Origin: a virus
Reading direction: 5' to 3' (one strand)
DNA length: 25,911 nt
IMG/VR virus record: IMGVR_UViG_3300027977_001244
Location: 1 to 25,911 of that record
The translations under genes were made by a program, and so were the position numbers. This document shows positions 1,617 to 21,322 of this stretch, piece after piece (the stretch's first letter is position 1; each line of letters begins with the position of its first letter). The notes under the pieces were generated by a model that saw only the letters and a list, made by a program, of their open reading frames with translations, had not been told where the DNA came from and ran no database searches.

Positions 1617-1624
1617 ATGCGTTG

Positions 1625-1628: not shown

Positions 1629-1641
1629 AGATATACGCATA

Positions 1642-4886: not shown

Positions 4887-5285
4887 TTAACTTATCTCGG
4901 TGCGTCCGTCACCAATGTCACGGGTGTGTACATAACCGCCTGCTGAGTTGCGCATGGCTTGGTCTTGTTCCCATGTTTCCATCACAACGTGTCTGCATAC
5001 ATTTTGGAACCAACGATCCACAATGTCTGAGTCTGCGTCTGTGGGCTTCATCATGTAACCAGCCTTGACCAGGCGTGCAATGAATATCTCATTCCAGTCT
5101 AGTTCAAATGCACCTTGGTGCAAGTTGTTGGGATCAATGTCCATGTTCAAGATAGCCACATACGGTTCGTTGTTTTCGGTGGCAATTTGCTTGGCAGTTT
5201 TCTCAGGCGCCTTGGGTACACGAATAACTTTTTCCGCTACGGGTTTAGATTCTGGTTTTTTCTTAAATCTATCAAAGAATCCCAT
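4887..5285 (-). CDS. Conserved phage protein of unknown function, 132 aa
   Basis: It begins MGFFDRFKKKPE, followed by a Lys/Pro/Glu-rich linker of about 30 residues. A compact domain follows, containing AFELDWNEIFIARLVKAGY, DRWFQNVCRHVVMETWEQDQ and a short C-terminus. It resembles a hypothetical protein of T4-like cyanophages. Two upstream in-frame ATGs exist at 5297 and 5309. The ATG at 5285 is preferred because it overlaps the queE stop as TAATG and gives the usual amphipathic N-terminus. No catalytic motif is apparent. The position directly after queE may be by chance. Confidence 0.72.
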   Translation of the reverse strand: MGFFDRFKKKPESKPVAEKVIRVPKAPEKTAKQIATENNEPYVAILNMDIDPNNLHQGAFELDWNEIFIARLVKAGYMMKPTDADSDIVDRWFQNVCRHVVMETWEQDQAMRNSAGGYVHTRDIGDGRTEIS

Positions 5286-6130
5286 TATTTGCCCCATCCG
5301 TTGCCCCAAAGGTCAACGTGTAATCGTGGACTGTACCAGTAGCCACGTTTGAGTGCTTCATCGGCCACATTGATTCTGTTGCCATCGTATACACTGACCA
5401 CACCTCCCACAGGCATCACAAACACAGGACCACCAAACTCACGCAAGCGATATTCATCTACTGCACGATCCAGTTCATCAAAGTCCGCAACTTTTTCTAC
5501 CACAAACTTGAGATAGGTCACACCGTATGTTTCATAGTCCCACACAACATCAGGCTTGATAGCGTCCGCCCAGGACTCACCTGACACTGATAGTTTGGGA
5601 CTGACACTGAATGTGATCTCACCAAACCAGTTGCGCAAGTAGTCTTTAAATTCCCGAGTCAAGTCTTGAGTACCATTGGTTTCAAATGTGATGTGTCGCA
5701 GGCCATGTTCGTGCAACACATCCAACAGTTCTGGATAAGCACGTTGCCAACCCAACAACGGCTCACCTCCGGTAATAACCAAGTGTACTGGATTGCCATT
5801 GGGTTGAAGCCAATGCCCATTGGGCAACAATGCTGTCATCCGGTCCACAAGTTGTTCTACTGTGTATGTGGGACTCAAGTGTTTGAAGTCTGGATGCCAT
5901 GACGCATAACTGTCGCAACCTGTGTTCACCAGCGGCAATTCTTCAAATGTTTTGTACAACTCCACAGTCTTGGCCACTTCGTCTGCTTCTGTGCTCTTTT
6001 CACCAGGTTTGCAGCCAAACCCTGAACAGGTAAAGTTACAACCAAACATGCGCAAAAATACACTGGGCACACCAACATAGCGTCCTTCACCTTGTGCTGA
6101 ATAAAATAATTCTGATACTTTGAGTTTCAT
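5285..6130 (-). CDS. queE: QueE, 7-carboxy-7-deazaguanine synthase (radical SAM)
   Basis: 281 residues. SAQGEG at 11-16 is the QueE N-terminal signature. Radical SAM cysteines are C31 and C35 (GCNFTC). The third is most likely C72 in TGCDSYASW, which matches the canonical C-D-T/S-x-Y-A block; about 36 residues are inserted between the second and third Cys, including another Cys at 40. TGGEPLL at 120-126 binds SAM. QueE converts 6-carboxy-tetrahydropterin to 7-carboxy-7-deazaguanine, the step after QueD (9676-10209). The ATG has AGGA six bases upstream. The gene is downstream of queD on the same strand. Confidence 0.88.
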   Translation of the reverse strand: MKLKVSELFYSAQGEGRYVGVPSVFLRMFGCNFTCSGFGCKPGEKSTEADEVAKTVELYKTFEELPLVNTGCDSYASWHPDFKHLSPTYTVEQLVDRMTALLPNGHWLQPNGNPVHLVITGGEPLLGWQRAYPELLDVLHEHGLRHITFETNGTQDLTREFKDYLRNWFGEITFSVSPKLSVSGESWADAIKPDVVWDYETYGVTYLKFVVEKVADFDELDRAVDEYRLREFGGPVFVMPVGGVVSVYDGNRINVADEALKRGYWYSPRLHVDLWGNGWGK

Positions 6131-6137
6131 GTAATTC

Positions 6138-6827
6138 CTATAGTCTTGTTACTGTGCTCATGCCTGAGCGGTTCTTTTGTAAGTCGGCAGTCTCTTGTGC
6201 TATTTTAACACGAGTTTCCGGCTTTGTCACCCAACCTGGTAATACTGCATCCAAATAGGTCAAATGCTCTGCAGGGGTAGGGTGCGGGTCATCACTGTGT
6301 TTCCATCCTACGGGGTACAACACTGTTTGATAACTGGGCATGATGTTATTTAGAACAGGTTGATACAAATCAAAAATATCTTGATCGCCTGGTGAATAAT
6401 CAAACTGTCGGGGATTCATTATGTCACACATGGACAAAAACTTTGAGTTAACACCTGTGCAGTTTTTTAAAAAATTTGCAGTGGCCTTGATCGAAGCAAT
6501 GTCTCGAATCAAGCATCCTCTTTCAGTGATAGCATCTCGAACATAGCCAGGATCGTATATTGGACAAGTAGTTATGTTGCCTAGTGTCTGCCAACGATCA
6601 GTATAGCGATCCTCACGCATGACATTGGTCCAACACACTACCACAGTATCACCAGCACCAAAATGATGACGCTGATCTGCTTCCATTATGCTGTTAAAAA
6701 TATACTGATTGCCGGCGCCTGATTGACCCCAGTTTTCAAAATAGTCAAATTCTGGAGCAAGACAATCGGCCCAGGTGCTCCAACGATAGTTGGTAAAACT
6801 GCACCCGAATGCAAACAGTCTCGACAT
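6138..6827 (-). CDS. SGNH hydrolase-like protein, 229 aa
   Basis: RLFAFGCSFTNYRW gives block I with its Ser, NWGQSGAGNQYIF gives block II with conserved Gly, VVVCWTNVMREDRY fits block III, and DPHPTPAEHLTYLD near the C-terminus supplies the catalytic Asp and His. The fit to the SGNH family is better than for the second member at 3669-4388. The substrate is unknown; acyl or acetyl groups on sugars are typical. The ATG at 6827 overlaps the radical SAM stop as TGATG, which rules out the longer upstream extension that would overlap that gene by 100 bases. The two proteins may act in one pathway. Confidence 0.7.
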   Translation of the reverse strand: MSRLFAFGCSFTNYRWSTWADCLAPEFDYFENWGQSGAGNQYIFNSIMEADQRHHFGAGDTVVVCWTNVMREDRYTDRWQTLGNITTCPIYDPGYVRDAITERGCLIRDIASIKATANFLKNCTGVNSKFLSMCDIMNPRQFDYSPGDQDIFDLYQPVLNNIMPSYQTVLYPVGWKHSDDPHPTPAEHLTYLDAVLPGWVTKPETRVKIAQETADLQKNRSGMSTVTRL

Positions 6828-8833: not shown

Positions 8834-8845
8834 TATGTATTTAAG

Positions 8846-9679
8846 TCATTTAGAAAAGTGTGCATGTGGATTATCAAACTGCACCATTTGCTTGTTTATA
8901 TCATTCCGGGCTAGTTTTTCCCAAGGGTCTTGTGTGCCTTTGAAGATGTTTTCAAAGAACTCAATGCTAATGCCATGATCTCGCATGTACACAGCTAACT
9001 TGACACAGTCTTTATGACGCAGTTCGATCTGCGTTCGACTGTGGAAATCTGCTTCGTCAAATGGACGACCTTCCAGTGATGCGCGTTCTTTAAACGTGGT
9101 GTCATTGTTGTTGCCTGTGATGTCGGCACGGTCATGCAACACCCATACAGGTATGCGTTCCCAAATGTCCAACATGTAGGCCTGCTGACTGAGCCAGCCA
9201 TCTTGCACACTGTGCGGAGAAATGTAACCCAACAATTCATACCACTTGCGAGGCAAAATTGGAAAAATGCTGTAGGGATGATCCAAGTGTGTATGGAATG
9301 CCAACAATTTGAACTGGCCTTCGTAACGCATGATCTCTGTGTTCCACCCCTGGGTCTCCATCACAGCATCATCGTTCCAGATCATCAGCCAGCGAGCATC
9401 AGTTTGTTCAGCCAGTTTATTGTTGTAGATGTGCAGTCTATGGTAGCCCAAGCGTTCAAACTGCATGGCAGTATAAGTAAGTTCTTGTTCGTCCAACCAC
9501 GGCTGTAGTTCAGTTTTAAAATACTCAGTACCTGCCACATCATCATTGTCAAACGCAAACATCAACTGTAGTCGGTCTGGATGATCAGCCAGTTTGATCA
9601 GGCTGCGAACACTGCGGCCCAGGCTTTCAGTCCGGCCTCTTGTGGCCAGCAACATGGCAATATCGTAAGCTGGTGTCAT
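8846..9679 (-). CDS. GT2-like (GT-A fold) glycosyltransferase
   Basis: 277 residues starting YDIAMLLATRGRTESLGRSV, the typical first strand and loop of GT2 enzymes. FAFDNDD near 42-47 and WLMIWNDDAVMETQGW at 97-112 carry the acidic nucleotide-sugar/metal motif (D103, D104). The C-terminal half is rich in His and aromatic residues and probably binds the acceptor. No membrane segment is present, so it is a soluble enzyme. It overlaps queD as ATGA and so lies on the queD transcript. Because of that linkage a role in glycosylating DNA or a modified base is possible, but a surface glycan is at least as likely. Confidence 0.75.
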   Translation of the reverse strand: MTPAYDIAMLLATRGRTESLGRSVRSLIKLADHPDRLQLMFAFDNDDVAGTEYFKTELQPWLDEQELTYTAMQFERLGYHRLHIYNNKLAEQTDARWLMIWNDDAVMETQGWNTEIMRYEGQFKLLAFHTHLDHPYSIFPILPRKWYELLGYISPHSVQDGWLSQQAYMLDIWERIPVWVLHDRADITGNNNDTTFKERASLEGRPFDEADFHSRTQIELRHKDCVKLAVYMRDHGISIEFFENIFKGTQDPWEKLARNDINKQMVQFDNPHAHFSK

Positions 9680-10209
9680 GCAAACAAATCCTCATTCCAT
9701 TCTCTATGGCCTTCTCTAAAAGCCATGTTTGATTGTGTTTCACGTACTTCCACTCGATAGCACCAAAGACGTTCTGCTTCACCTTGTCCCCACATATCTG
9801 GGATATAAACGCCATTGACATACTTGTAAAGATAGTCAGCGAGGGACTCGCATCCTAACTTTGGTAGTATAGTCAATTTCATAAGACCACGCTTCTCGGC
9901 TTCTTTATACCAATCAAGTTCCGGGTCATCAGAACTACAAAGCGTGGTGTGGTCAAACTGACTTTCCAATACTGACTTGAGTTCTTTTAGTCCGCCATAG
10001 TCAGCAGCCCAGTTGCGTGTGTCTAGGTTGTCTGTGCCAAAGTAGAACTTCATGGAGAAGCTGTATCCATGTATCAAGTTGCAATGACTGTCTGCCCTCC
10101 ACTGACGATATGCGCATGGAAATGCATCGTGGTATTCTTTAGTACTAGTGTATTTGTATTGTCTTGCGGACATCCAACGGTGCCCTACTTGGTTTTGGTC
10201 TTGTGTCAT
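9676..10209 (-). CDS. queD: QueD-like 6-carboxy-tetrahydropterin synthase with altered zinc site
   Basis: 177 residues of the PTPS/QueD T-fold. FPCAYRQW, HCNLIHGYSF at 42-51, SQFDHTTL at 83-90 and GCESLADYL (E120) align with the canonical AAHR, CxxxHGH, LDHxxLN and PTAExxA blocks. The catalytic Cys (C43) and the Asp-His pair (D86, H87) are kept. At the three zinc-His positions there are Y34, H47 and Y49. H27 or H42 could substitute. The enzyme turns dihydroneopterin triphosphate into carboxy-tetrahydropterin, the substrate of QueE. The ATG has AGGAG upstream and a sigma70-type promoter begins the transcript. It is coupled to the following glycosyltransferase by ATGA. Confidence 0.8.
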   Translation of the reverse strand: MTQDQNQVGHRWMSARQYKYTSTKEYHDAFPCAYRQWRADSHCNLIHGYSFSMKFYFGTDNLDTRNWAADYGGLKELKSVLESQFDHTTLCSSDDPELDWYKEAEKRGLMKLTILPKLGCESLADYLYKYVNGVYIPDMWGQGEAERLWCYRVEVRETQSNMAFREGHREWNEDLFA

Positions 10210-10227
10210 GCTTTTTCTCCTATGTTA

Positions 10228-10256
10228 ATTATAGCATAGGCGGCAGAGTTTGTAAA
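10228..10256 (-). promoter_or_regulatory. Sigma70-type promoter of queD
   Basis: On the - strand TTTACA (10251-10256) and TATAAT (10228-10233) are separated by exactly 17 bases, with TGC before the -10 giving an extended -10. It lies in the 81-base gap before queD and would start RNA about 15 bases above the ATG. This is the best host-type promoter I see in the window and suggests early transcription by host RNA polymerase. Confidence 0.75.
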
Positions 10257-10280
10257 GCGGGAATGACGCCAAGACCGCTT
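10255..10280. terminator. Inverted repeat between HIT gene and queD (weak terminator or operator)
   Basis: AAGCGG and CCGCTT form a 6-bp inverted repeat with a 14-base loop, followed on the - strand by TTT. It lies after the HIT gene stop and touches the -35 of the queD promoter. It may be a weak terminator of the incoming transcript or a binding site. The stem is short, so confidence is low. Confidence 0.3.
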
Positions 10281-10290
10281 AAAGAAATAC

Positions 10291-10692
10291 TTATGCTGGT
10301 TGTTGGTAACCTGTGGCTTTGTAGTTGGCTTGCCCAACAATAACTCCGCGAACACCGCCAACGGGATCAGCACAGTCGCCGTGACGTCGGGGAATCAAAT
10401 GCACATGTGGATACATCACAGTTTGTCCAGCGGCAGCACCACAGTTGATGCCTATGTTGAATGCATCACATTCACCAGCATCAACCATTCTACGACCTTC
10501 ACGCATGGCTGTTTCAAAACAATCCGAGATCACTGCATCTGTGTTGTATTGTGGCACAAACAACAAGTGTCCTGGAGCCACAGGATAACGATCTTGAAAC
10601 ACAGCCACATGAAAGTCGCTGAGTCGGCCAACTTCCAAATCCCAAGGTGCGACTCCTGCTGACTGTGCTTGTTCTAATGTTTCATATTGCAT
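10291..10692 (-). CDS. HIT-family hydrolase/transferase
   Basis: About 133 residues. HLLFVPQYNTDAV and GINCGAAAGQTVMYPHVHLIPR carry the HIT signature, followed by RRHGDCADPVGGVRGVI. The usual HxHxH triad reads Y-P-H-V-H, so the first His is Tyr while the nucleophilic middle His and the third are kept. HIT enzymes hydrolyse or transfer nucleotides from dinucleoside polyphosphates, nucleotide-sugars or AMP-lysine type substrates. I use the ATG at 10692, which overlaps the amidinotransferase end by 11 bases; a GTG at 10716 is the alternative. It is the last gene before the queD promoter. A nucleotide-processing side role is plausible. Confidence 0.82.
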   Translation of the reverse strand: MQYETLEQAQSAGVAPWDLEVGRLSDFHVAVFQDRYPVAPGHLLFVPQYNTDAVISDCFETAMREGRRMVDAGECDAFNIGINCGAAAGQTVMYPHVHLIPRRHGDCADPVGGVRGVIVGQANYKATGYQQPA

Positions 10693-11743
10693 TGATAATC
10701 TTTCTTTTATTTCCACGTCTTTTAATGTCTAAAGTGAAACAGTGCAAATTGCCAAACCAAAAATTCATGTGTCTAAATGGCGACACATGGACTGTGATGT
10801 TTTTACTCAAGAAAAAATCTTTTAGTGCTGGTGTAGCATGACTCATCACTATGTTCTGACTATCAACCACTATTACATTAGCATAAAAAATCACCATCTG
10901 TGTGTAGCCTTTGCTGTCTTCAAACAATCCAGCTAACTCGTGTGGCCCAAAATTTAAATAATTGTCATCAATGTAAGGCGTGATATCATAAATTGTTTTA
11001 TTTTTCAAACACTTTGGTACAAATTCAGTGCCCACACAAAACACAGTGTCGTCGTTGGTCATAAAGAATCCATGATCCACATGCCCCCAGTTTTGCAGTA
11101 TATTGTCTGCTGGCACAATAGTTTCGGCTGGCAAATTTTTATGCATCCATTCAAACCCCAACTGAGTACCTGGACCACGAGTGTTGGTTATCAATGTATC
11201 ACCACATTTGAACATGGTTGCTGTATGAGTCAACAGTAGATTTCGATACAACTTTTCATAAACCAAAGTCCCACGATTGGCTACTGGATCCAAGTTTTGA
11301 TATTCAAACATTTTATGCATGTCTCTCAACATTGGGGGCGGTTGACTGATCCAATTTGCACCAGCTGCAAACATTGTTTGAAAAATATTGTAGTATGCCA
11401 AACTATCCAAGTATCGATCCGGCATACTGGTGTATGTTTGGAAGATTGTGTCTCCATATACTAGATACTGATCTCTGGGCACCATGGGACTGAATGGTTC
11501 TTTCACAGTAAAACTAGCAAATTGAATTTCATTGCTGTATTTAAAAACTTTAGGACGATGTACCTTTGCACCCAAAGTTTGCAAAGTCTGTGCCAAATAA
11601 TCCAAGTCTGATTTAGTTTCCGCTAGCATGGTATTAAATGCCGATCTTTGATCTAAAGGTATGCACCAGTCTAGGTCTCCAGGACTGTAACAATCACCTA
11701 CTATGACCTCTTCAAGTGGATCCCATTCAGTCCATACACTCAT
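10682..11743 (-). CDS. Amidinotransferase (GATM/StrB1-like)
   Basis: 353 residues similar in plan to glycine and inosamine-phosphate amidinotransferases. SVWTEWDPLEEVIVGD begins the pentein fold. KCGDTLITNTRGPG holds the likely catalytic Asp (D182), NWGHVDHGF the His (H221), and WFGNLHCFTLDIKRRG the nucleophilic Cys (C335) with the family-typical D-I-x-R-R-G tail. The enzyme would move an amidino group from arginine to an amine. The acceptor is unknown; an aminosugar, an amino acid or an aminomethyl-deazaguanine are all possible. The ATG at 11743 overlaps the stop of a 25-residue ORF as TAATG. It lies between folE and queD. Confidence 0.85.
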   Translation of the reverse strand: MSVWTEWDPLEEVIVGDCYSPGDLDWCIPLDQRSAFNTMLAETKSDLDYLAQTLQTLGAKVHRPKVFKYSNEIQFASFTVKEPFSPMVPRDQYLVYGDTIFQTYTSMPDRYLDSLAYYNIFQTMFAAGANWISQPPPMLRDMHKMFEYQNLDPVANRGTLVYEKLYRNLLLTHTATMFKCGDTLITNTRGPGTQLGFEWMHKNLPAETIVPADNILQNWGHVDHGFFMTNDDTVFCVGTEFVPKCLKNKTIYDITPYIDDNYLNFGPHELAGLFEDSKGYTQMVIFYANVIVVDSQNIVMSHATPALKDFFLSKNITVHVSPFRHMNFWFGNLHCFTLDIKRRGNKRKIINAI

Positions 11744-11820
11744 TAGTGAGATTCCTCTTTTAGGCCAAGCCGCAGTTGAATACTATCCTCACTCGACTTT
11801 TGTCCGTCCCATGTTGCCAT
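11743..11820 (-). CDS. Small ORF, 25 aa, between the BI-1 and amidinotransferase genes
   Basis: A 25-codon frame starting MATWDGQKSSEDSIQL and ending KEESH. Its ATG lies two bases after the BI-1 stop, with AAGGA seven bases upstream, and its stop overlaps the amidinotransferase start as TAATG. It exactly fills the gap between two real genes, and both junctions are typical of this genome. It has no membrane segment. It could encode a real microprotein or act as a translational coupling leader for the amidinotransferase. No homolog is known to me. Confidence 0.5.
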   Translation of the reverse strand: MATWDGQKSSEDSIQLRLGLKEESH

Positions 11821-11822
11821 GA

Positions 11823-12521
11823 TTATTCCTTTCTACCGCCAAACAACTGCAACAGATTCAAGAACAAGTTGATAAAGTCCATGTACAAAGTCAATGCACC
11901 ACGTATTTCTGCACTGTCACTGGTCTCTACACTGAGTTCTTGGCGAATCTTTTGTGTATCATAGGCAGTGAGTCCCAGGAAGATTATGATTGCCAATGCT
12001 GAAATCACCATCTGCATCACAGTTGATCCAATAAAAATATTCACAATGCTGGCAATGATGATGGCAATCAAGCCCACAAACATAAACTTACCCACACTGT
12101 CAAGACTGCGTCGGGTAAAGTAGCCATAACCACTCATTACCCCAAACAAGATGGCTGCACCCATGAATGCACTCACAATCGATCCCATGGTAAACACCGC
12201 AAAGATCATGCTAAAACTCAAGCCCATCAAGGCAGCAAATCCATGCAAGCACAACTGTGCTGTGGATTTTGTGGGATTATTGGCCAACACATAACTCACA
12301 CCAAATATGGCTGCCAAGGGTGCAAAGATAACAATCCATTTCAACACACCAGTGAAGAAGAATTGCAACAGTTCTGGCGTGGTACCAATCCAGTAACTGA
12401 TCAGCATGCTGACCAGCACAGCCAAGCTCATGTGTCCATACACACGACCCATGGCCGAATTAATTTCTTCTGCTGAACGATAATTGCCAACATCATTGTC
12501 ATTGTAGTTTGCGCCAAACAT
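11823..12521 (-). CDS. Bax inhibitor-1 (TMBIM/YccA-like) membrane protein
   Basis: 232 residues with about seven hydrophobic segments starting near residue 30 (MSLAVLVSMLISYWIG, then WIVIFAPLAAIFGVSYVLA, FSMIFAVFTMGSIVSAFMGA, FMFVGLIAIIIASIVNIFIG and MVISALAIIIFLGLTAYDT). GLTAYDTQKIR and ALTLYMDFINLFLNLLQLFG at the C-terminus are the signature of the bacterial BI-1/YccA family, which acts as calcium/proton leak channels or FtsH modulators. It would sit in the host inner membrane. GGAG lies before the ATG. A phage copy may modulate FtsH proteolysis or lysis timing, which is inference. Confidence 0.87.
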   Translation of the reverse strand: MFGANYNDNDVGNYRSAEEINSAMGRVYGHMSLAVLVSMLISYWIGTTPELLQFFFTGVLKWIVIFAPLAAIFGVSYVLANNPTKSTAQLCLHGFAALMGLSFSMIFAVFTMGSIVSAFMGAAILFGVMSGYGYFTRRSLDSVGKFMFVGLIAIIIASIVNIFIGSTVMQMVISALAIIIFLGLTAYDTQKIRQELSVETSDSAEIRGALTLYMDFINLFLNLLQLFGGRKE

Positions 12522-12530
12522 AATGTCTCC

Positions 12531-12725: not shown

Positions 12726-12737
12726 GCTCTTTCTCCT

Positions 12738-12854
12738 TTAAGTTAATTCTGCTACTCGATATTGGCTGGCAGGATAGTGTTCCTGCAACCATTCCAACAA
12801 CCCTGGTTCCCAGGGCAATTTGATTTCACCGGTTATGTTTGTAATGTGCATCAT
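12738..12854 (-). CDS. Small ORF, 38 aa, coupled to folE
   Basis: A 38-codon frame starting MMHITNITGEIKLPWEPGLL and ending YRVAELT. Its first ATG overlaps the folE TGA as ATGA, with AGGAG eleven bases upstream in folE; a second ATG follows immediately. It fills almost the whole gap to the next gene. The fragment PWEPGLLEWLQEHYPAS looks like folded protein rather than random translation. It is likely a real small gene of unknown function. Confidence 0.55.
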   Translation of the reverse strand: MMHITNITGEIKLPWEPGLLEWLQEHYPASQYRVAELT

Positions 12855-13546
12855 CTTGGTGCAAACTCCTGTTGTAACTTGATATTGTCCATGAACTCTT
12901 TTTTCACACTGTCGTCCGTTTTAAAGGCACCACGCAACACAGTGGTCTGTGTTAGGCTGGAGTGTGCCATGATGCCGCGATTCTCACAGCAGCCATGCAC
13001 TGCCTGAATGTACACACCAACGTCTTTTGACGCAGTTGCTGCCATGATCTCGTTGGCAATGTCTATGCACAGTTCTTCCTGTAGCGTACCGCGACGGGCA
13101 CACCACTGAGCAATGCGTGTGTACTTACTAAGTCCGATCAGTTTCTCTGCCGCAATAATGCCAATATAAGCAACCCCAGCAACGGGTTGGTGATGATGAC
13201 TACACATACTACGAAGTTCACTGCGAACCACGAGCATGCCTTCGTAACGGTCTGCTGAATCATTTGGAAACGCTGTACAATCTGGTGCTTGTTCATATCT
13301 TCCTGCCATTATTTCGTTGTAGTACATTTTGGCCAAACGTCGAGCTGTGCCCTTGCTATTAGGATCTGTTTCACGATCAATCAGCAATGCATCTAACACA
13401 CCCTCAAACGCCACTGTGGCTTCGTCAATGAGTTTTTCTTTAATGGCATCGGTCATGTAATCGCTGATGTTGTCGCCGGCCCAGAAGCGGCGACCTCGGG
13501 CTGTCATTTGTTCTCTAAGTATTTGGGATAAATTTTTTTCTTGCAT
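12851..13546 (-). CDS. folE: FolE, GTP cyclohydrolase I
   Basis: 231 residues. RSMCSHHHQPVAG carries zinc ligands C115 and H118, LIGLSKYTRIAQW is the conserved GLSK block, and VHGCCENRGI carries the third zinc Cys (C186) and the RG pair. The enzyme converts GTP to dihydroneopterin triphosphate and formate. In a phage that also encodes QueD and QueE it most likely feeds 7-deazaguanine synthesis rather than folate. GGAG lies before the ATG and a sigma70-type promoter directly upstream. The N-terminal 45 residues before the catalytic domain are extended and helical, as in many bacterial homologs. Confidence 0.93.
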   Translation of the reverse strand: MQEKNLSQILREQMTARGRRFWAGDNISDYMTDAIKEKLIDEATVAFEGVLDALLIDRETDPNSKGTARRLAKMYYNEIMAGRYEQAPDCTAFPNDSADRYEGMLVVRSELRSMCSHHHQPVAGVAYIGIIAAEKLIGLSKYTRIAQWCARRGTLQEELCIDIANEIMAATASKDVGVYIQAVHGCCENRGIMAHSSLTQTTVLRGAFKTDDSVKKEFMDNIKLQQEFAPR

Positions 13547-13563
13547 TATAACTCCAGTGTGTG

Positions 13564-13592
13564 ATTGTACACTATTTAGATCTTGCAGTCAA
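13564..13592 (-). promoter_or_regulatory. Sigma70-type promoter of folE
   Basis: On the - strand TTGACT (13587-13592) and TACAAT (13564-13569) are separated by 17 bases, each one mismatch from consensus. The -35 overlaps the stop of the upstream glycosyltransferase gene. RNA would begin about 10 bases above the folE ATG, just before its ribosome binding site. Confidence 0.7.
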
Positions 13593-14620
13593 GTGGTTAA
13601 GGAATCAAATACTCGTATGGTATTGAAAACCTGGCGTCTATTTGTTCGAAAGTATACAAGCAGTTGTTCAAAGTTGGCTGCTAATCTTGGTTGCAGTTGT
13701 TTACGCAGTGCTTCACAATCTGCCAAACTGTATTGATTGTTGAGTTGGCTGATTAGGTCATATACGGATTGATGTCTTTGGGTTTCATCCGGTATGGCAT
13801 CATATTGGTGACCACCAAGTATGTCATCAAACGTATCAAACCCCAATTCCCTGACATGTTCAACCAATCCTGGCACACCATACCATATGGGAATCTGACG
13901 TTGCATTATGGCCTTCCAAGTCTTTTCAGTAAGAAACACACTGCGCCATTGTGGCGTATTGCCACAGTATTCAGTTTGACTACTGGTTTCAGCTGCGATA
14001 TTAAACAAACAAGAATGAAATTGGGGATTGCTGATATCAAACTCTTGCACTCGATCTGTCAACACACCGTCTACTAACAATGGCAAATCAACATCTACTA
14101 CGTCACGATACTGATTGAGGCCGTCACCTGCGCTAACGCCAAAACTCAATCTAACTGTGTCTAGCCCTATGTGATCCAAAAAGAAACGTGCCAGCCTTGC
14201 TCGGTTAAGGGAGGGTCTACGCAACAAACACAAGAACTTTCGGTCAAGGGCTAGATCAAAGTTGTGGTTGAGTTGATCTAACCGGTACTCACTGCGATGG
14301 ATCAACCATGTGGTAAAACAAACTGCAGGATAAGGCAATCGATCAACATTTACGTGTGCATTGAACAATACCATGAATCGGTCTGGATGTGATTGTAACA
14401 ACATGCGAGTCAGTGGCCCGATGTCGTCTGGCCCAAATCCTTCATCCAGGAATGACAGTATGATTTTGCTTTGAGCGAACTCTTCAGCAGTGATACCACT
14501 GCAAATGCAATCCTTCACAATTTGGCTTGCACAATAATCTGGTGTATGCATTTCTTCCGGTTGATAATGCGAAGCACCGTATTTCAGCATGCCTGGTCTA
14601 TTGCGAATTATGCAACTCAT
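13589..14620 (-). CDS. GT10-like glycosyltransferase, full length, 343 aa
   Basis: The C-terminal half has FLTEKTWKAIMQRQIPIWYG (Thr-Glu-Lys at 231-233), then a VPGLVEHVRELGFDTFDDI segment, the arrangement seen in GT10/fucosyltransferase-like GT-B enzymes. The N-terminal half (KIILSFLDEGFGPDDI, CLLRRPSLNRARLARFFLDH) probably forms the acceptor domain. It is a clear paralog of the truncated + strand gene at 2-439. No membrane anchor is seen. The ATG overlaps the aminotransferase stop as ATGA, linking it to the sugar genes upstream. Donor and acceptor are unknown. Confidence 0.68.
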   Translation of the reverse strand: MSCIIRNRPGMLKYGASHYQPEEMHTPDYCASQIVKDCICSGITAEEFAQSKIILSFLDEGFGPDDIGPLTRMLLQSHPDRFMVLFNAHVNVDRLPYPAVCFTTWLIHRSEYRLDQLNHNFDLALDRKFLCLLRRPSLNRARLARFFLDHIGLDTVRLSFGVSAGDGLNQYRDVVDVDLPLLVDGVLTDRVQEFDISNPQFHSCLFNIAAETSSQTEYCGNTPQWRSVFLTEKTWKAIMQRQIPIWYGVPGLVEHVRELGFDTFDDILGGHQYDAIPDETQRHQSVYDLISQLNNQYSLADCEALRKQLQPRLAANFEQLLVYFRTNRRQVFNTIRVFDSLTT

Positions 14621-15216: not shown

Positions 15217-16159
15217 ACCAGTTCCAAGCATGTTGGATCATGTGATCTAATTCAAATTGTTTCCACCCCGTGGCAACCATGCCAAACTTGGCAGCACTTG
15301 CTGTGAGCACAGCAGGATCTCCTGGCCTGGCCGCTCCCAACACAACTTTTAATTTTTTTCCAGTTATGCGTTCGGCAGCGGCAATGATTTCTCGATTACT
15401 GACGCCGTTATTGTTGCCCAAATTGTATACACCAGTTGGGATTTCGGCATCCAAGGCCATGACATGTGCTCGAGCAATGTCTTCCACATGCACATAGTCA
15501 CGCACACATGTGCCGTCTGGGGTGGCAAAGTCTACGCCATTCAAGGTGAATTCTGCATCATCTCTCAAGGCTTCCAGCACTCTGGCAATGATGTGTGTGG
15601 CACCTAATTCTTGTCCGTGTCTTGTCTTACTGTCAGCACCACAAGCATTGAAGTAACGAAATGCCACGTAGTCTAATTTGTAGGCAGTGTGATATGCTGC
15701 CATGATCCGTTCTACCATGAGTTTGCTGTCGCCATAAGGAGATATGGGCTCACAAGGATCCACTTCGTGGCAGGGAGTCATCACAGGTTCACCATACACT
15801 GCGGCACTGCTACTGAAAATAACTCTGGTCCGGGGCATGCTGCTGCGCACCTGATCCAACAGTGTCAAGGTATTGACCACATTGTTTTCAAAGTAACGCC
15901 CAGGATGTAGGATGCTAGGTCCAACCAGACTGGTGCCAGCACAGTGAATGATGGCTTGGGGACCATGTACCAATAGTTTTACCAAAGAATCTTTGTCAGC
16001 AAACTCAAGTTCAACATAATCGTGAAACACTGATCGTAATCTTTCTGGGCACTTAGCTTTGTCGATGCCCACAACACGGTGTCCCAAGTCAGCCAATATT
16101 AGTGCAGTCTGGCCGCCAATGTATCCAGCAGCGCCTGTTACTACTACAGTTTTTTTCAT
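15206..16159 (-). CDS. galE: UDP-glucose 4-epimerase-like (extended SDR)
   Basis: 317 residues of the extended short-chain dehydrogenase fold. TGAAGYIGGQ at 8-17 binds NAD, FSSSAAVYGE holds the catalytic Ser, SPYGDSKLMVE gives Tyr142 and Lys146, and RYFNACGAD plus CVRDYVHVEDIARAH are GalE-type substrate blocks. It would interconvert UDP-glucose and UDP-galactose or the GlcNAc forms. The ATG has AAGG seven bases upstream and overlaps the glycosyltransferase stop as ATGA. With the DegT protein and glycosyltransferases it looks like a small nucleotide-sugar cassette. The exact sugar is not provable here. Confidence 0.9.
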   Translation of the reverse strand: MKKTVVVTGAAGYIGGQTALILADLGHRVVGIDKAKCPERLRSVFHDYVELEFADKDSLVKLLVHGPQAIIHCAGTSLVGPSILHPGRYFENNVVNTLTLLDQVRSSMPRTRVIFSSSAAVYGEPVMTPCHEVDPCEPISPYGDSKLMVERIMAAYHTAYKLDYVAFRYFNACGADSKTRHGQELGATHIIARVLEALRDDAEFTLNGVDFATPDGTCVRDYVHVEDIARAHVMALDAEIPTGVYNLGNNNGVSNREIIAAAERITGKKLKVVLGAARPGDPAVLTASAAKFGMVATGWKQFELDHMIQHAWNWYVR

Positions 16160-17370
16160 GACTCAACCTTAACTACGTGATATTTAGCTTCAGCCACATG
16201 GTCACGGTATCTCGCACCTGCCCTATTCCAATGCTCACCAAGACCAAGCAGTATATCAACCACACGGTCAACAGTGCCATTGTTCCAGTCAGATATGAGA
16301 CCCATGTTGTGATGAGGTTCTCGCAGGAGATTTTGCATCTTGTGATATGCATCATCAATGCTCCACGGAACGTACAGTCTGTTGGGATCGTTGGCAAAGG
16401 TTTCGGGGAATGACCGGTATGCCGGATATAACACATTGCAGCCGATAGTGTCAGCCTCACTGACCGTATTGCTGACCCAATCTTGTAAAGCACAGTTGAA
16501 CAAAACTCTAGTGTTGTTGAGATGATCATAGTATTCATTCTTGGTGATGTTGTCGTAGATTTTCAACTTGCCAGCTGCCTCCATGACCCTGGCACGTGTC
16601 ACATACTCTGGGTTGTTGCTACGCAATGGCCCACCTGAGTAGATGGCAAACTCGCATGGCTCGCTAGTAAGTTCACCATACATTTCAATGAGGTCCATGA
16701 AGAAGCCAGGTTGCTTTTCTTGATCAAAACGTGCGGCAAAGCCCACACGGTGCGGACGATCTGCAAATGGTCGAATATTGTCGCTACCGCCAATGCGTTC
16801 TAACACTTCCTCTTTGCCAAATGCCAAACCTGAGATGTTGTAGATAGGAGCAGTCCAACCAGCAATACGCATGTGTGCAATCATTTCTTCGTTGGTTGCA
16901 AGAACTCCACCATTAGATTTAGATACAATTTCATTGACCATTTGTTCATATAAACTCATCCACTTACTCATGCCCCACACATGCACAAAGTCATCGGGGT
17001 CAATGGCCTGTGCTAGACAGCGTACATAAATGCGAGGACGTTGTTCTGGGGGAATCTGGTCCATGATGTATGGCAAACTCTCAATGCCAGGCTGGAACAT
17101 GTCTTCAAAATAGATCACATCTTCATTTGTGACTTCACCTTGTTGCATGAGTCTGACCAAGTTCATCATCTGGCTCATGCCAAAGTAACTGCGTCCGTGT
17201 GCATCCAGCACTTGTCCCACAACAATCTTTTGACTGTTGTCTAGGGTCAAACCCGGCACATAAACCACGTCAAGACCTCGACGTTCAAACACACGTCGAT
17301 TCCACTCTGTGAGTTGCAGTGTGTAACGGGCCTCATAACTTTCAAGGCCCATGTAGTATAGTTTTCTCAT
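16156..17370 (-). CDS. GT-B glycosyltransferase (GT4-like)
   Basis: 404 residues with the C-terminal donor domain of GT4-type enzymes: HRVGFAARFDQEKQPGFFMD at 207-226 starts the second Rossmann half, and QDWVSNTVSEADTIGCNVLY with E305 is the nucleotide-sugar contact segment. The N-terminal half binds the acceptor. It is soluble and lacks a signal peptide. Similar glycosyltransferases are common in T4-like phages of aquatic bacteria. It is coupled to galE by ATGA and preceded by a GAGAAAG ribosome binding site. It most likely modifies a glycan or DNA base; the substrate is unknown. Confidence 0.8.
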   Translation of the reverse strand: MRKLYYMGLESYEARYTLQLTEWNRRVFERRGLDVVYVPGLTLDNSQKIVVGQVLDAHGRSYFGMSQMMNLVRLMQQGEVTNEDVIYFEDMFQPGIESLPYIMDQIPPEQRPRIYVRCLAQAIDPDDFVHVWGMSKWMSLYEQMVNEIVSKSNGGVLATNEEMIAHMRIAGWTAPIYNISGLAFGKEEVLERIGGSDNIRPFADRPHRVGFAARFDQEKQPGFFMDLIEMYGELTSEPCEFAIYSGGPLRSNNPEYVTRARVMEAAGKLKIYDNITKNEYYDHLNNTRVLFNCALQDWVSNTVSEADTIGCNVLYPAYRSFPETFANDPNRLYVPWSIDDAYHKMQNLLREPHHNMGLISDWNNGTVDRVVDILLGLGEHWNRAGARYRDHVAEAKYHVVKVES

Positions 17371-17373
17371 ATT

Positions 17374-18261
17374 TTATACTTTCTCTAGTAAATTGTAAAG
17401 TGTTTTAGAATCAGTTGGAAATGTGTTTAATTGGTCACATCGTATCTCGTAACCTAATGATCGTAAACGTTGTTGTACAATAGCTTCAGAAATCACGTTA
17501 ACTGGATTCCATGTGAGATCCTTATTACTCACCGTGTATGAGACAATTTGATTTAACAAATCAAACTCGTCAACAATGTATTGTTGTTTATTGCGCCATT
17601 CTAGACTAAATTCTTCGAGTCCTGATTTTAACGTAAGCTCACAGTGATTGATAATTTTTTTCATAGTTGGAACAAAATCGTTTAGTACATCTAAGTGATC
17701 AATTTTTATAAATTTATTATCAATTTCATATTGGGACTGTATCCACTCTTGTATCCAAGAAACATAAAACAAACTAAACCATTCTCTCAGTTCCCATAAC
17801 TGCATGTCCTTATAGTCGGTATAACAAATATTCCAATTTTTAATATTATGAGTATTGTCGCCACAAAATATTTGTAGCCCCGCATTAACTTTTTGTCCTG
17901 CGGCTATTTTATGATATTGAAACAAAATATTTAATTCAGCACCACTAAGCGAGTTAGCATGGAGTAACACACATTTATCTTTATGATAGTTTACATGCTG
18001 CCTTTTTATTGTTCGAAGTATTTCAGGAAAATGTGTATCACAAAATGGATAGATTGACGTTGTTATTGCATCGGTGCACAAGTTGTCAAGGCCTATTAAT
18101 TCTTTGTGTTGCCTTGGATGAAATTCTTTTGAAAAATTATGCATAGAACCATCTGAACATATAGATATATCGTGTAACGCACTGTATTCCTTTGTGAAAC
18201 ATCGTAACACATATTCAATGGTCGATCCAAACATACCTGGAACAAAGAACACATGAATCAT
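17374..18261 (-). CDS. Phage protein of unknown function, possibly sulfotransferase-like, 295 aa
   Basis: The N-terminus MIHVFFVPGMFGSTIEYVLR resembles the strand-loop-helix that binds PAPS in sulfotransferases, but the usual Lys and Gly-Thr-Thr are absent. The rest is acidic and aromatic without known motifs (NWNICYTDYKDMQLWELREW, KFIKIDHLDVLNDF). The gene is visibly AT-richer than its neighbours, with poly-A and poly-T runs, which suggests separate acquisition. Its ATG follows the upstream TAA directly. A sulfotransferase is one option next to a glycosyltransferase. I am unsure. Confidence 0.6.
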   Translation of the reverse strand: MIHVFFVPGMFGSTIEYVLRCFTKEYSALHDISICSDGSMHNFSKEFHPRQHKELIGLDNLCTDAITTSIYPFCDTHFPEILRTIKRQHVNYHKDKCVLLHANSLSGAELNILFQYHKIAAGQKVNAGLQIFCGDNTHNIKNWNICYTDYKDMQLWELREWFSLFYVSWIQEWIQSQYEIDNKFIKIDHLDVLNDFVPTMKKIINHCELTLKSGLEEFSLEWRNKQQYIVDEFDLLNQIVSYTVSNKDLTWNPVNVISEAIVQQRLRSLGYEIRCDQLNTFPTDSKTLYNLLEKV

Positions 18262-18486
18262 TTAACTACGATGGCCTGCAAAGCGACGAGTGTCCTCATC
18301 CCACATGTTCTTGGCATACTTGCCAGCATGCCACTTGCTGAACTGTTGCCAGGCGTAGGTTTTGAAGTTGTACAGATCCGCTTCGTTGTAGCGGTATCCA
18401 TAGTCCTGGCAAAATTCCAGATACACTTCAAGATCGTCTTGGATCTCACGTACTTTGGGGTTGGGTTTGAATGTGGGTCTTGCCAT
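18262..18486 (-). CDS. Conserved phage protein of unknown function, 74 aa
   Basis: A 74-residue basic and aromatic protein (ARPTFKPNPKVREIQDDLEV, then DYGYRYNEADLYNFKTYAW and HAGKYAKNMWDEDTRRFAGH). It appears helical and resembles small hypothetical proteins of T4-like phages. The ATG at 18486 has AAGGAG seven bases upstream; a TTG at 18507 is rejected. The stop is immediately followed by the next gene's ATG. Function unknown. Confidence 0.7.
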   Translation of the reverse strand: MARPTFKPNPKVREIQDDLEVYLEFCQDYGYRYNEADLYNFKTYAWQQFSKWHAGKYAKNMWDEDTRRFAGHRS

Positions 18487-18496
18487 GTTGTTCTCC

Positions 18497-18940
18497 TTAG
18501 ATAACAATATTGTTGAGGGGTCTAGTGATTTCGTATCGGATCAGTGCGCCGTTTTCTCCGTCTTCGGAGACTTCGATCCACACCGCTCGACTGGGATAGC
18601 GACCGGCTATTTGTATATATAGGTCGTCTGCCATCATCTCACAACTTTTGTAATCTAGTTGGAGAGTTCCACTGCGGTAGAGATTTTCAAGCCAGCGTTT
18701 GAATTGGATAAATTCAATATCGCGATCATTGTGTACAACATCAATCCACACCCGGAAATGGAACATGTGACGATGAGGATTGGCAAGAAACGAAACGTCA
18801 TATTCATCACCTGTGGCCAGTGCAGGATCTGTGGCAGCCGCAGGATATCTGTGCATGCCTTCCTTTTGAAACGTGACCCAAATTTTTCTTTGTGCATGTT
18901 GCATTATCCTGTCTACCACTTCACGTTGTTCTTGATTCAT
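18497..18940 (-). CDS. T-fold (PTPS/QueD-like) protein, 147 aa
   Basis: The sequence follows the PTPS/QueD plan. H30 in KEGMHRYPAA and H56/H58 in ANPHRHMFHFRVWIDV fit the three zinc-His positions of QueD (AAHR and HGH). RDIEFIQFKRWLENLY matches the helix after the second strand, and IEVSEDGENGALIRY has a Glu (E126) at the usual catalytic Glu place. The Asp-His pair reads D96-Y97 (LDY) and the catalytic Cys is absent. It is therefore probably a T-fold protein with a changed reaction or a binding role. It lies two genes after dpdA. A QueF-like role is another possibility. The fold assignment is inference from motifs. Confidence 0.6.
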   Translation of the reverse strand: MNQEQREVVDRIMQHAQRKIWVTFQKEGMHRYPAAATDPALATGDEYDVSFLANPHRHMFHFRVWIDVVHNDRDIEFIQFKRWLENLYRSGTLQLDYKSCEMMADDLYIQIAGRYPSRAVWIEVSEDGENGALIRYEITRPLNNIVI

Positions 18941-19236
18941 GATTTCAAACTTTCAAATGTCACAATCTTGCCCAAGGCATCACCAAGGTCTTGATCTGGA
19001 TGTACAATGTGTAACTCACAGTGATGTTGGTCCTTGCGTTCATCATATCTGTTGATCTCTACCAGTACGCCGCCATTGGCACGATACACAGTGAAATTCA
19101 TTCTATGCCGACTACTGCCAATGTCTTGCCGGTCTCTTGTGATGCTGTTTGATAATCTAGCTACCTCACAGATTGTTTCTTCACGGCTTGTAATGCGTTT
19201 GGCACGTTTTAATATCCAGTTGTCAAGCCATTTCAT
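18937..19236 (-). CDS. Conserved phage protein of unknown function, 99 aa
   Basis: 99 residues: KWLDNWILKRAKRIT at the N-terminus, then MNFTVYRANGGVLVEINRYD and ERKDQHHCELHIVHPDQDLG. The second half looks like a small beta-sheet domain. It closely resembles a hypothetical protein family of T4-like cyanophages. It overlaps both neighbours as ATGA and lies in the group following dpdA. No enzyme motif is seen. Confidence 0.74.
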   Translation of the reverse strand: MKWLDNWILKRAKRITSREETICEVARLSNSITRDRQDIGSSRHRMNFTVYRANGGVLVEINRYDERKDQHHCELHIVHPDQDLGDALGKIVTFESLKS

Positions 19237-19730
19237 AGTTTCTTATCACCTTTGTAATCATCCCATGAAGTAAATGTCTCACGGCTCATTAGGCTGTGCA
19301 GACTGTGGCACCAGACGCCGGGATTGGTAGCGTCAAAGTCCTTGTCATCTATTTTTAACATTGTATTATAATTCCACAGTTTTGTATACGGTACACTTAC
19401 TCGAATCTGTGGAACGAAGTTGCGGTAATCACACAAGCCGCCTTCATGGAATTCCTCCACTGCCGAGATGGGAATATCCAAAGTGCAAAGGTAACCACGT
19501 GTCAAAAAGTACGTGATCATGCTTTCCCACTTGCGCCACTCTTCGGGAGTTTGAGGATTGAAACTGTGGTTGGCACCAAAGAATATGTGTTCACAACCTG
19601 CCATTTTGGCAGCAATACTATCAACAGATTGTATGCCTACAACAAACAATGTTTGCTTGCCAAATGCCGGAGTGCGTTCTACTTCTGTCCCTGTAAAGAA
19701 ATCAACTTCTGCATGTCCTGCTCTATTCAT
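19233..19730 (-). CDS. Conserved phage protein of unknown function, 165 aa, next to dpdA
   Basis: 165 residues: MNRAGHAEVDFFTGTEVERT, GKQTLFVVGIQSVDSIA, EHIFFGANHSFNPQTPEEW, a YLCTLDIPISAVEEF segment, VSVPYTKLWNYNTMLKIDD and a C-terminal DFDATNPGVWCHSLHSLM. The alternating strands and helices suggest an alpha/beta domain, perhaps barrel-like. It resembles a conserved T4-like phage protein whose function I do not know. The ATG overlaps the dpdA TGA as ATGA, so it is translated with the transglycosylase and may assist it. Confidence 0.76.
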   Translation of the reverse strand: MNRAGHAEVDFFTGTEVERTPAFGKQTLFVVGIQSVDSIAAKMAGCEHIFFGANHSFNPQTPEEWRKWESMITYFLTRGYLCTLDIPISAVEEFHEGGLCDYRNFVPQIRVSVPYTKLWNYNTMLKIDDKDFDATNPGVWCHSLHSLMSRETFTSWDDYKGDKKL

Positions 19731-21322
19731 GTTGTGGTTCCCAACGTATCAAGTTTATTAGAATCAAAATCTTCTTGTTCAGTTTGTTCGTATTCAAACA
19801 GTGCATTGAATTGTGTACGTGCGTTCTTGGTTTTCTTACCTTTAAATCCACGTGTGCCCACAATCTCCATCCAGTAATCATCATAATATTCAATGATGGC
19901 TTCTGAATCTTCACGTGTGGGAGCGGCAAATATGGCTTCCACAATGTCTTCAAACTTGGCATAATCCCCTGTGCTACGGCGCATCATAGCAGGGTGTTCT
20001 CCTGCATCAAAGCGACGATTGGCTTCTTGCACAGCAGTCAAGTGCATCCACACATTGTGCCCCATCAGCAATGCATAACTAAAACTGTCCCAACTTGTCT
20101 TGCCCCACTTGCCATTTTTGTTGACATCTGGCAGCACATCATACATTTCTGGATCTCGGAAGTTTTCTTCTGTGAGTACAACTCCGGGCTTGGGTGTACC
20201 TGCTTTGTAAATGCAAATGTCTTTCATTGTAAGCATGTTGCTGAGCGGCGAATCTTCCCAGCGTGGGTAAATGCCATCTGCTACAATGCCATCTGACCAC
20301 TTGCGTGTGTCTGTGGCATACTTCTTGTCGTCAGCACTTGGCGCCATGCGATACGACCACTTGGAGTCATGTTCAAACACATTTTCAAAGTACACCTGTC
20401 CATTGGCAGTAGCGAGGAATGGGCTGGCACAATCAAAGGAGATAGTAAATTCGGGGTTAGCGTATTTTCTAACTGCTCTTTGAATCACGGTGAGTAGCAC
20501 AGCCCATTCCAACTTTGAGGTGCCCAAGAAGTGCATCCAATCGTGTACGCCTGGCTGCAACAAGCCATCATACTTGAGTGCAATCAGTCGCTTGAGTACC
20601 AAGTGTACATCGCACATGTTCTGTCCACCCATGGCCCAACCATCAAAGTGTGTGTCTGGATATTGCACAGGGTCACAGTATTGTTTCATGGTTTGGTACC
20701 ATGTTTCTGCTGACGTGTGATTATCACCTTGCAACACATTCAAGAACTTAGCACCACCATTGGCTTTGCCCCGACGGTGAGCCATAAAGTATTCATTGTT
20801 GTACTTGGTGGCGTCTACTGCTTCTTGCAGTGTTTTGATACCACAGGCATCGCTGGCTTTTTTGTCATGAATAACCCAGGTAGGGATATCAAGAATCATG
20901 CCATAGTCGCTGATGGTATCCAGCCACTTCAAAATACTACTGCGTTTCTTTTCTGCTTTGGCACAGCCCGAGTTGGCTTTCCAGTCGCCTTCCCACAAGC
21001 CTTTGGCAATCTGGAATCCACCAGAGTCGCCAAGCATGAACGTGCCTGACTCGCGATTGCGAACCATGTCTTCTGACCAGTCCTGCTTGGTCAAATCCAA
21101 GTTGGCATGCCCGCCTGAATACAATGACCACTTATACGGAAACAATGCTTTTTGACTGTTGAGCCAGTTTATTTGTTCCATATCAGTCAGCCCCTGGGGA
21201 AATCTTGCAGGGTCTACATACAGTTCGTTGCGTTGCTTGCCTACAAAGGTGGCATAAAAGCCAGATATAGCTGGTAAGAACACAGCGTAGTCAAGTTGTT
21301 TGGCGGTTAGATTATCTTGCAA
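19727..21322 (-). CDS. dpdA: DpdA-like DNA guanine transglycosylase (TGT superfamily)
   Basis: 531 residues. FMLGDSGGFQIAKG holds the TGT signature (D99, S100-Q104), MILDIPTW places D145 where TGT recognises the base, LNVLQGD and WAMGGQN match the QG and GG blocks, and TISFDCASPF gives the nucleophile D297 (FDC-x-x-P). The Cys-rich zinc site of tRNA-TGTs (CxCxxC...H) is absent after D297, which fits DpdA, the enzyme that exchanges guanine in DNA for a 7-deazaguanine. A C-terminal extension of about 150 residues is unassigned. The start is TTG at 21322, because a stop lies seven codons upstream and no ATG exists in frame. It overlaps the DUF2061 gene by 11 bases. Confidence 0.85.
   Translation of the reverse strand: MQDNLTAKQLDYAVFLPAISGFYATFVGKQRNELYVDPARFPQGLTDMEQINWLNSQKALFPYKWSLYSGGHANLDLTKQDWSEDMVRNRESGTFMLGDSGGFQIAKGLWEGDWKANSGCAKAEKKRSSILKWLDTISDYGMILDIPTWVIHDKKASDACGIKTLQEAVDATKYNNEYFMAHRRGKANGGAKFLNVLQGDNHTSAETWYQTMKQYCDPVQYPDTHFDGWAMGGQNMCDVHLVLKRLIALKYDGLLQPGVHDWMHFLGTSKLEWAVLLTVIQRAVRKYANPEFTISFDCASPFLATANGQVYFENVFEHDSKWSYRMAPSADDKKYATDTRKWSDGIVADGIYPRWEDSPLSNMLTMKDICIYKAGTPKPGVVLTEENFRDPEMYDVLPDVNKNGKWGKTSWDSFSYALLMGHNVWMHLTAVQEANRRFDAGEHPAMMRRSTGDYAKFEDIVEAIFAAPTREDSEAIIEYYDDYWMEIVGTRGFKGKKTKNARTQFNALFEYEQTEQEDFDSNKLDTLGTTT

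Follow-up and report, generated by a model that had tools for sequence, protein, structure and literature searches.

A phage 7-deazaguanine gene cassette that lacks QueC and carries a QueD paralogue and a glycosyltransferase

Our only material from a large, uncultured phage is a 25,911-base fragment, IMGVR_UViG_3300027977_001244 (the whole stretch analysed, hereafter the window), in which putative genes for the synthesis of 7-deazaguanines and their insertion into DNA lie close to a DNA polymerase gene. The minus strand carries nearly all window open reading frames (ORFs) of at least 200 aa, and on it are found FolE, QueD, QueE and a transglycosylase resembling tRNA-guanine transglycosylase (TGT), as a previous, sequence-only reading had proposed and as profile matches (Table 1) and, for the last of these proteins, a structural model now bear out. 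The same reading called the phage T4-like, which holds only in a broad sense: the nearest phage relatives of the window polymerase are in the jumbo phages Phosso (50.6%) and Atu_ph07 (45.6%), not in classic T4. It did not single out two further genes on which much of what follows turns, a QueD paralogue (ORF 18497-18940) and a glycosyltransferase (GT; ORF 16156-17370).

Table 1. Features of the window discussed in the text, in order from the polymerase gene
Feature	Position	Strand	Evidence and context
Family B DNA polymerase	23190-25832	-	PF00136, E 1e-32; cassette context
Methyltransferase-like ORF	22252-23193	-	between polymerase and clamp-position ORF
Clamp-position ORF	21494-22216	-	phrog_12062, E 1.6e-31, library gives no function; cassette context
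DpdA-like DNA guanine transglycosylase (putative)	19727-21322	-	predicted TGT fold, without CxCxxC zinc motif
Conserved protein after dpdA	19233-19730	-	overlaps dpdA by 4 bases; 103/105 loci
QueD paralogue	18497-18940	-	phrog_17812, library function unknown
Small conserved ORF in the gap between paralogue and GT	18262-18507	-	78/105 loci
GT, probably GT-B	16156-17370	-	weak Pfam Glyco_trans_1, E 0.04-0.05, below cut-off
Gene recognized as glycosyltransferase only by eye	13589-14620		
FolE, GTP cyclohydrolase I	12851-13546	-	PF01227, E 2e-39
BI-1/YccA-type membrane protein	11823-12521	-	FtsH modulator-like match below cut-off
Pentein/amidinotransferase-like gene	10682-11743	-	phrog_25854
HIT-domain protein, between FolE and QueD	10291-10716	-	PF01230, E 1.7e-10; 46/69 loci with at least 6 kb downstream of dpdA
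QueD, 6-carboxytetrahydropterin synthase	9676-10209	-	PF01242, E 1.2e-15; phrog_2389, E 1e-36
B12-binding radical SAM protein, 668 aa	6827-8833	-	best NCBIfam match KedN5 C-methyltransferase family, below cut-off
QueE, 7-carboxy-7-deazaguanine synthase (radical SAM)	5285-6130	-	phrog_2076, E 5e-52
Homing-endonuclease-like ORF	1062-1640	-	phrog_314, E 1.8e-8

The identity of ORF 19727-21322 was settled by its predicted structure. Sequence alone did not reveal a TGT: Pfam, PHROGs, NCBIfam and PDB sequence profiles all failed, the TGT Pfam model PF01702 found nothing in the window at E ≤ 1, and E. coli TGT matched weakly. Relatives found by tblastn, all hypothetical proteins, occur in 13 phage records, among them the PA5oct group (36% identity), Sinorhizobium phage Phosso (30%) and Vibrio phage 2.275.O (34%), and at least 600 IMG/VR stretches encode further ones, of which the best 80 were kept; a scan with the PA5oct protein as sole query found no relatives. 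An AlphaFold2 model built from 34 aligned sequences reached a pLDDT of 87.5 and a pTM of 0.85 (the single sequence gave an unusable model, pLDDT 35), and all 14 of its Foldseek matches in the PDB at E ≤ 0.001 are TGTs, as are all 50 entries listed by VIA, which aligns the model with T. maritima TGT over 306 residues at 4.5 Å with a Z score of 20.2. Among viral models, it matches DpdA2 of Vibrio phage nt-1 (R9TGF0, BFVD E 1e-9) and the Motura transglycosylase. The protein is thus predicted to adopt the TGT-type TIM-barrel fold.

Residue conservation in the 34-row alignment agrees with this assignment. The invariant positions are D99-S-G-G, Q104, D145, G199, L266-G267, D297 and H422; 31 rows share C370, and position 198 is Gln in 27 and Ser in 7. 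D99, D145, G199, L266-G267 and D297 presumably correspond to the catalytic aspartates and base-binding residues of TGT, an equivalence drawn from the TGT motifs and from hhalign alignments covering part of the protein. CxCxxC, the zinc motif of tRNA TGT, is missing from the window protein, as the sequence-only reading had noticed, as well as from all 210 fetched copies and all 153 distinct relatives. When the family profile was compared with single sequences, the match was 93.6% for the DpdA-type protein of phage ACP17, 20.3% for E. coli tRNA TGT, 7.0% for that of X1, 2.6% for that of BUCT-ZZ01, 1.4% for nt-1 DpdA2 and 0.1% for the DpdA of phage 9g, and no match to nt-1 appeared at E ≤ 1. Against a set made of the ACP17, X1, BUCT-ZZ01 and nt-1 proteins it was 90.9%, a value carried by ACP17, with eight control families at or below 0.4%. 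The statement that the family is nearer to DpdA2 than to tRNA TGT was dropped, since comparing a set with a single sequence is unfair and, taken singly, only the ACP17 protein beats TGT. Because the fold by itself is insufficient, the case for a DNA substrate is built on the absence of CxCxxC, the relation to the ACP17 protein and the genomic context; homology, fold and synteny together support a DNA-type transglycosylase of a 7-deazaguanine pathway, in line with what had been claimed for this locus, and we hold it very likely that a deazaguanine is inserted into DNA.

Given that the window is a fragment, the absence of QueC (none at E ≤ 1 in the window, as had been noted before) is carried for the phage itself by its relatives. 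The QueE family was found in all 26 long records searched (21 contigs with the window DpdA family and five reference phages) and QueD in 21 of them, nt-1 included with a weak and partial match, the five misses all being IMG/VR contigs. QueC did not pass the cut-off in any of 23 contigs (two sub-threshold fragments were seen; IMG/VR contigs may themselves be fragments), nor in complete PA5oct and Phosso, which have the window DpdA family, nor in complete BUCT-ZZ01, and the same search was positive in nt-1 and CP220. Among 24 contigs with more distant DpdAs there was one marginal match (22.7 bits against a cut-off of 22, positions 3-91 of 210) besides one sub-threshold fragment, and among nine phages with the QueD paralogue one match over the cut-off (Vibrio phage D479, 32.8 bits, positions 133-201 of 210) and a sub-threshold fragment in X1. 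D479, itself a paralogue carrier, is the only named phage that departs from the QueC-less rule. QueC together with FolE, QueD and QueE, the mark of a preQ0 pathway, is not what these phages encode, and no QueF was found in 28 records (in the window, by library scans of 28 ORFs only), which give no sign of a QueF-L, dG+ or preQ1 route, ArcS not having been searched for. The sequence-only reading had left the choice between completion by a host or distant gene and a carboxy form of the base; with QueC missing from complete genomes and nearly all long contigs, a carboxy-derived base is likelier and preQ0 recedes. The phage pathway most likely ends at 7-carboxy-7-deazaguanine (CDG), and a base derived from CDG and not from preQ0 is, in our estimate, likely with good confidence. 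CDG has already been considered for Mycobacterium phage Bipper, which is without QueC only (Hutinet et al., 2019, PMC6884629).

Twelve long contigs, as far as the stretches compared reach, mostly share one gene order: polymerase, clamp-position ORF, dpdA, ORF 19233-19730, QueD paralogue, GT, FolE and QueE (G002 and G026 end before QueE, and G031 has no GT by tblastn). The clamp-position ORF sits between polymerase and dpdA in all 12, and from this position we infer that it encodes the sliding clamp. Distinct DpdA loci number 149 (65 near, 84 far), and 105 of them extend at least 2.5 kb downstream of dpdA; within these 105, ORF 19233-19730 and the QueD paralogue are each present in 103, GT in 102, FolE in 78, GalE in 47 and DegT in 38. 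Of the 84 far loci, five had GalE and none had DegT, their models being built from one sequence each and weaker, and QueD was found in none of these loci within the fetched stretch, yet it occurs elsewhere in several of those contigs. The conserved unit accordingly consists of FolE, QueD, QueE, DpdA, the QueD paralogue, GT and ORF 19233-19730. The sequence-only reading had seen sugar genes interleaved with the pathway, and they are there (profiles name a GalE-like epimerase, a DegT-like aminotransferase, a nucleotidyltransferase and a glycosyltransferase), but they do not form one background: GT 16156-17370 belongs to the conserved cassette and most of the others are variable cargo. ORF 19233-19730 has no Pfam, PHROG or NCBIfam match, and its phage homologues by tblastn are confined to the PA5oct group (about 30 kb from dpdA in PA5oct) and ACP17 (adjoining dpdA); the idea that it is a truncated QueE was rejected, the hhalign value of 1.1% being level with controls.

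ORF 18497-18940 was at first taken, by reading, for a QueF relative, and QueD won by profile. A 19-member profile of the family matches a 12-sequence QueD family in hhalign at 90.4% (E 1.4e-6), with ten other cassette families at or below 1.4%; matches to single QueDs are lower (E. coli 28.9%, window QueD 7.3%), Pfam PTPS finds two of the 19 members, at best with E 0.084 and among other weak matches, and a PDB profile search places PH0634, which we take to be a QueD homologue, on top with a non-significant E of 0.14. Aligned with E. coli QueD, H30, P33, H56 and H58, invariant in 19/19 members, match the HxxP and HGH motifs with their zinc histidines, and two glutamates are kept. QueD has its catalytic Cys four residues ahead of HGH; here that position is an invariant Leu52, which makes the ORF a paralogue and not QueD, apparently a QueD scaffold with altered chemistry. 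Members of phrog_17812 occur in 27 phage records (E ≤ 0.1), carriers being the PA5oct group, Phosso, RHph_I1_18, ACP17, X1, Bakedbeans, Ahp1 and D479, and further Cellulophaga phages phiST, phi13:1 and phi19:2, BUCT-ZZ01, MA9V-3 and, weakly, Roos. The gene lies within a few kb of annotated FolE/QueD/QueE in PA5oct, ACP17, phi13:1, Ahp1, Phosso, RHph_I1_18, X1, Bakedbeans, D479, MA9V-3 and BUCT-ZZ01; no such annotation stands beside it in the stretch of Roos that was read. In Bakedbeans (L260 6254-7405) and the Chryseobacterium phage MA9V-3 (L262 6431-7312), the paralogue forms the C-terminal part of a longer protein.

The relation of GT to group 1 glycosyl transferases is supported by a five-sequence family profile, which matches solved members of that group with E 3e-4; a loose EX7E/DX7E pattern, not placed in the alignment, fits 78 of 80 GT loci. 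Searched by tblastn against 50,697 phage records, GT was found only in BUCT-ZZ01 (62.6%), ACP17 and X1, each of which also encodes FolE, QueE, a DpdA-type protein and the QueD paralogue. PA5oct EST35_0317 and Phosso XYS97382 are divergent copies (22-24% in alignment) that tblastn misses, so that its list is not exhaustive. The GT profile recovers its five source genomes. In MA9V-3 it matches a marginal fragment, and it has no match in nt-1, CP220, 9g, phi13:1, Ahp1, RHph_I1_18, Bakedbeans, D479 or Roos.

Reciprocal scans show how closely GT and the paralogue are tied to the pathway. The GT scan returned at least 447 confirmed relatives, of which the best 80 were kept, 79 of them lying outside the stretches of the DpdA scan by an exact 120-base test. 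A DpdA was found in 72 of these 80 loci (window family 51, ACP17/nt-1 type 3, 9g type 18), a DpdA or FolE/QueD/QueE in 80/80 (78/80 without counting the 9g type), the QueD paralogue in 71 and QueC in none. Fifteen of the 9g-type DpdAs were found by plain BLAST, two of them weakly, and three more by a profile made from those matches, so that the count of 18 leans in part on itself. The gap between the GT frame and the 9g-type DpdA frame is at most 301 bases in 15/18 loci, and the frames overlap in 12/18; as they run from stop to stop, overlap of the genes is unproved. In the paralogue scan (best 80 kept, 79 counted, some contigs common to both scans), DpdA or FolE/QueD/QueE accompanied the paralogue in 75/79 loci and QueC in 0/79; of the four loci where the paralogue had no such company, three are contig pieces shorter than 5 kb. 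It should be noted that the QueC model used in these scans was built from nt-1, 9g and CP220, two positive controls being its own members. Control scans were too small (seven loci for ORF 13589-14620, one for the amidinotransferase), and the base rate was therefore taken, in place of a matched control, from QueE, homologues of which occur in 222 of the 50,697 phage records. Between paralogue and GT, three loci with 9g-type DpdA have a gene (L287 8602-9966, L289 8571-9977, L292 8563-9984) whose product, about 460 aa long, resembles a radical SAM enzyme by eye, and L281 has another radical-SAM-like gene (by eye) and a kinase-like gene there; these may possibly add base-tailoring steps.

The amidinotransferase was considered as a general base-finishing enzyme and rejected, being found at this place only in G002 and G003 of the 12 contigs (two incompletely covered) and in one further relative by scan; a 25.7% homologue, gp086, lies inside a cluster of radical-SAM and sugar genes in Campylobacter phage CP220, presumably a deazaguanine phage, and a gene distantly similar to the amidinotransferase stands upstream of the polymerase in about 12 loci. 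The B12 radical SAM, the BI-1-like protein, GalE and DegT were likewise set aside as core members, being rare or not found in far loci by single-sequence models. The B12 radical SAM is seen in closer relatives only, and the BI-1/YccA-type protein shows 91-96% identity in two relatives. The methyltransferase-like ORF occurs in 63/65 near loci and 0/84 far loci, with a median identity of 44% between highly conserved neighbours, which points to fast evolution. The homing-endonuclease-like ORF has no match in the 12 contigs compared.

Among phages with related systems, PA5oct has the same DpdA family as the window and no QueC, in the order polymerase, dpdA, GT, QueD paralogue, queE; unlike in the window, the annotation of the neighbourhood lists neither GalE nor DegT nor a radical SAM B12 gene. 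A system for making and incorporating deazaguanine has already been attributed to PA5oct, and the absence of QueC, the QueD paralogue and GT are not named for this phage in the portion of the paper available to us (Iyer et al., 2021, PMC7824862). FolE, QueE, paralogue, GT and a DpdA-type protein also occur together, without QueC over the cut-off, in Acidovorax phage ACP17 and in Xanthomonas phage X1; the order in X1 is GT, dpdA, QueD paralogue, queE, and the DpdA-type proteins of both phages are shorter and of another branch. In Synechococcus phage BUCT-ZZ01, a gene annotated as xanthine-guanine phosphoribosyltransferase directly follows queE (L086 20855-21316), which may point to salvage, or to a route at the nucleotide level, in addition to DpdA. 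Vibrio phage nt-1 resembles the window in its FolE, QueE, QueD-type protein and DpdA, which is divergent and of TGT fold (Hutinet et al., 2019, PMC6884629); unlike the window it has QueC, no GT-profile match and no place among the 27 paralogue records. In the dG+ pathway of phage 9g, dpdA likewise adjoins an annotated clamp and pathway genes, but there is a QueC-type gene, no GT, and a DpdA without a profile match to the window family.

We propose that FolE, QueD and QueE would convert GTP to CDG and that the QueD paralogue would then process it, most plausibly at the 7-carboxyl, which it would remove or alter. DpdA would swap guanines of the phage DNA for the base so produced, and GT would then decorate this base with a sugar, making it a bulky obstacle to restriction and to other defences that target DNA. 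Each chemical step is put forward from what is observed, namely gene presence, fold, residue conservation, lineage-wide QueC absence and gene coupling. The paralogue probably acts on CDG or a CDG product, and decarboxylation is its likeliest use, judged from its place in the pathway and from a prediction in the literature: Cui and colleagues reportedly described, in 2023, dDG and dCDG in phages, DpdA3 and a predicted CDG decarboxylase, DpdL. CDG-derived bases made without preQ0 are said to be known in phage DNA from the same work. Sugar addition to the deazaguanine would best account for the finding of GT with DpdAs of three kinds; action of GT on the modified base we put forward tentatively, at just under an even chance, and the explanation of the QueC-less cassette as a whole, from paralogue processing through DpdA insertion to sugar addition, at slightly better than even.

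Several observations weigh against this explanation. A fully decarboxylated CDG has no O or N at C7, so that the sugar would have to be on a retained carboxyl or carbon-linked, or the paralogue would not be a decarboxylase, and the zinc-histidine reading of the paralogue comes from aligned residues and not from a structure. The dpdA of Phosso lies about 170 kb from its QueD paralogue, FolE and QueE, which makes adjacency usual and not universal. E. coli tRNA TGT outscores nt-1 DpdA2 and 9g DpdA when each is compared singly with the window family. Other sugar genes are close by, and glycosyltransferase clusters of cyanophages have been explained as surface-glycan genes (Iyer et al., 2021, PMC7824862). 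Finally, six paralogue phages (phi13:1, Ahp1, RHph_I1_18, Bakedbeans, D479 and Roos) have no GT-profile match, most of them with annotated FolE/QueD/QueE adjoining the paralogue, so that glycosylation cannot be universal.

These six phages, the further sugar genes in the same operon, and the dDG, dCDG and predicted DpdL that Cui and colleagues reportedly described speak for a system in which the base is unglycosylated, the paralogue being a CDG decarboxylase, the final base 7-deazaguanine or CDG, and GT acting elsewhere, for example on virion or host surface glycans. We consider this the less likely explanation, though one to be taken seriously, given that GT keeps company with DpdAs of three kinds, often right next to dpdA, that its tblastn matches are only in deazaguanine phages, and that GalE-like and DegT-like genes, by their weaker models, lack GT-style coupling. 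It is improbable that QueC is supplied by the host or by a distant QueC-like gene, with DpdA inserting preQ0 or an intermediate that follows it on the way to queuosine or archaeosine: possible host participation is discussed by Hutinet et al. (2019, PMC6884629), and the partial QueC matches in one contig and in paralogue-bearing D479 would fit, but these phages, complete genomes included, retain FolE, QueD and QueE without QueC, and the operon has a QueD paralogue instead. That the enzyme modifies tRNA, the operon tuning translation with a queuosine-type base, is very improbable, for although the TGT fold is common to tRNA enzymes and E. coli TGT does well in the single-sequence comparison, the relatives are uniformly without CxCxxC, the ACP17 protein matches far better, and replication genes adjoin.

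With the glycosylated CDG-derived base as the preferred explanation, what is new is the QueC-less branch with its two partners, the deazaguanine pathway itself being already known. In the titles and abstract openings of the literature searched, a coupling of deazaguanine genes to a glycosyltransferase is not reported; subscription papers and preprints were outside this scope, and absence is unproved. To our knowledge, glycosylated derivatives are not among the 7-deazaguanine derivatives described by Cui and colleagues in 2023. The glucosyltransferases of T4 place a sugar on already modified 5-hydroxymethylcytosine after replication, a likeness by principle only, as base and pathway differ. The coupling of GT to three DpdA kinds and the QueC-less branch point to an unrecognised, common hypermodification: it is a tentative extension, somewhat short of an even chance, that many large phages of diverse hosts use a CDG-derived 7-deazaguanine that is shaped by the paralogue, placed in DNA by a DpdA of one of three kinds and subsequently glycosylated. 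PA5oct, ACP17, X1 and BUCT-ZZ01 are cultured carriers of the cassette. If true, the modified base would be a purine counterpart of the glucosylated cytosine of T4, it could be a stronger barrier than small 7-substituents to restriction enzymes and perhaps to CRISPR effectors, and it would offer a new target for type IV enzymes specific for glycosyl-DNA.

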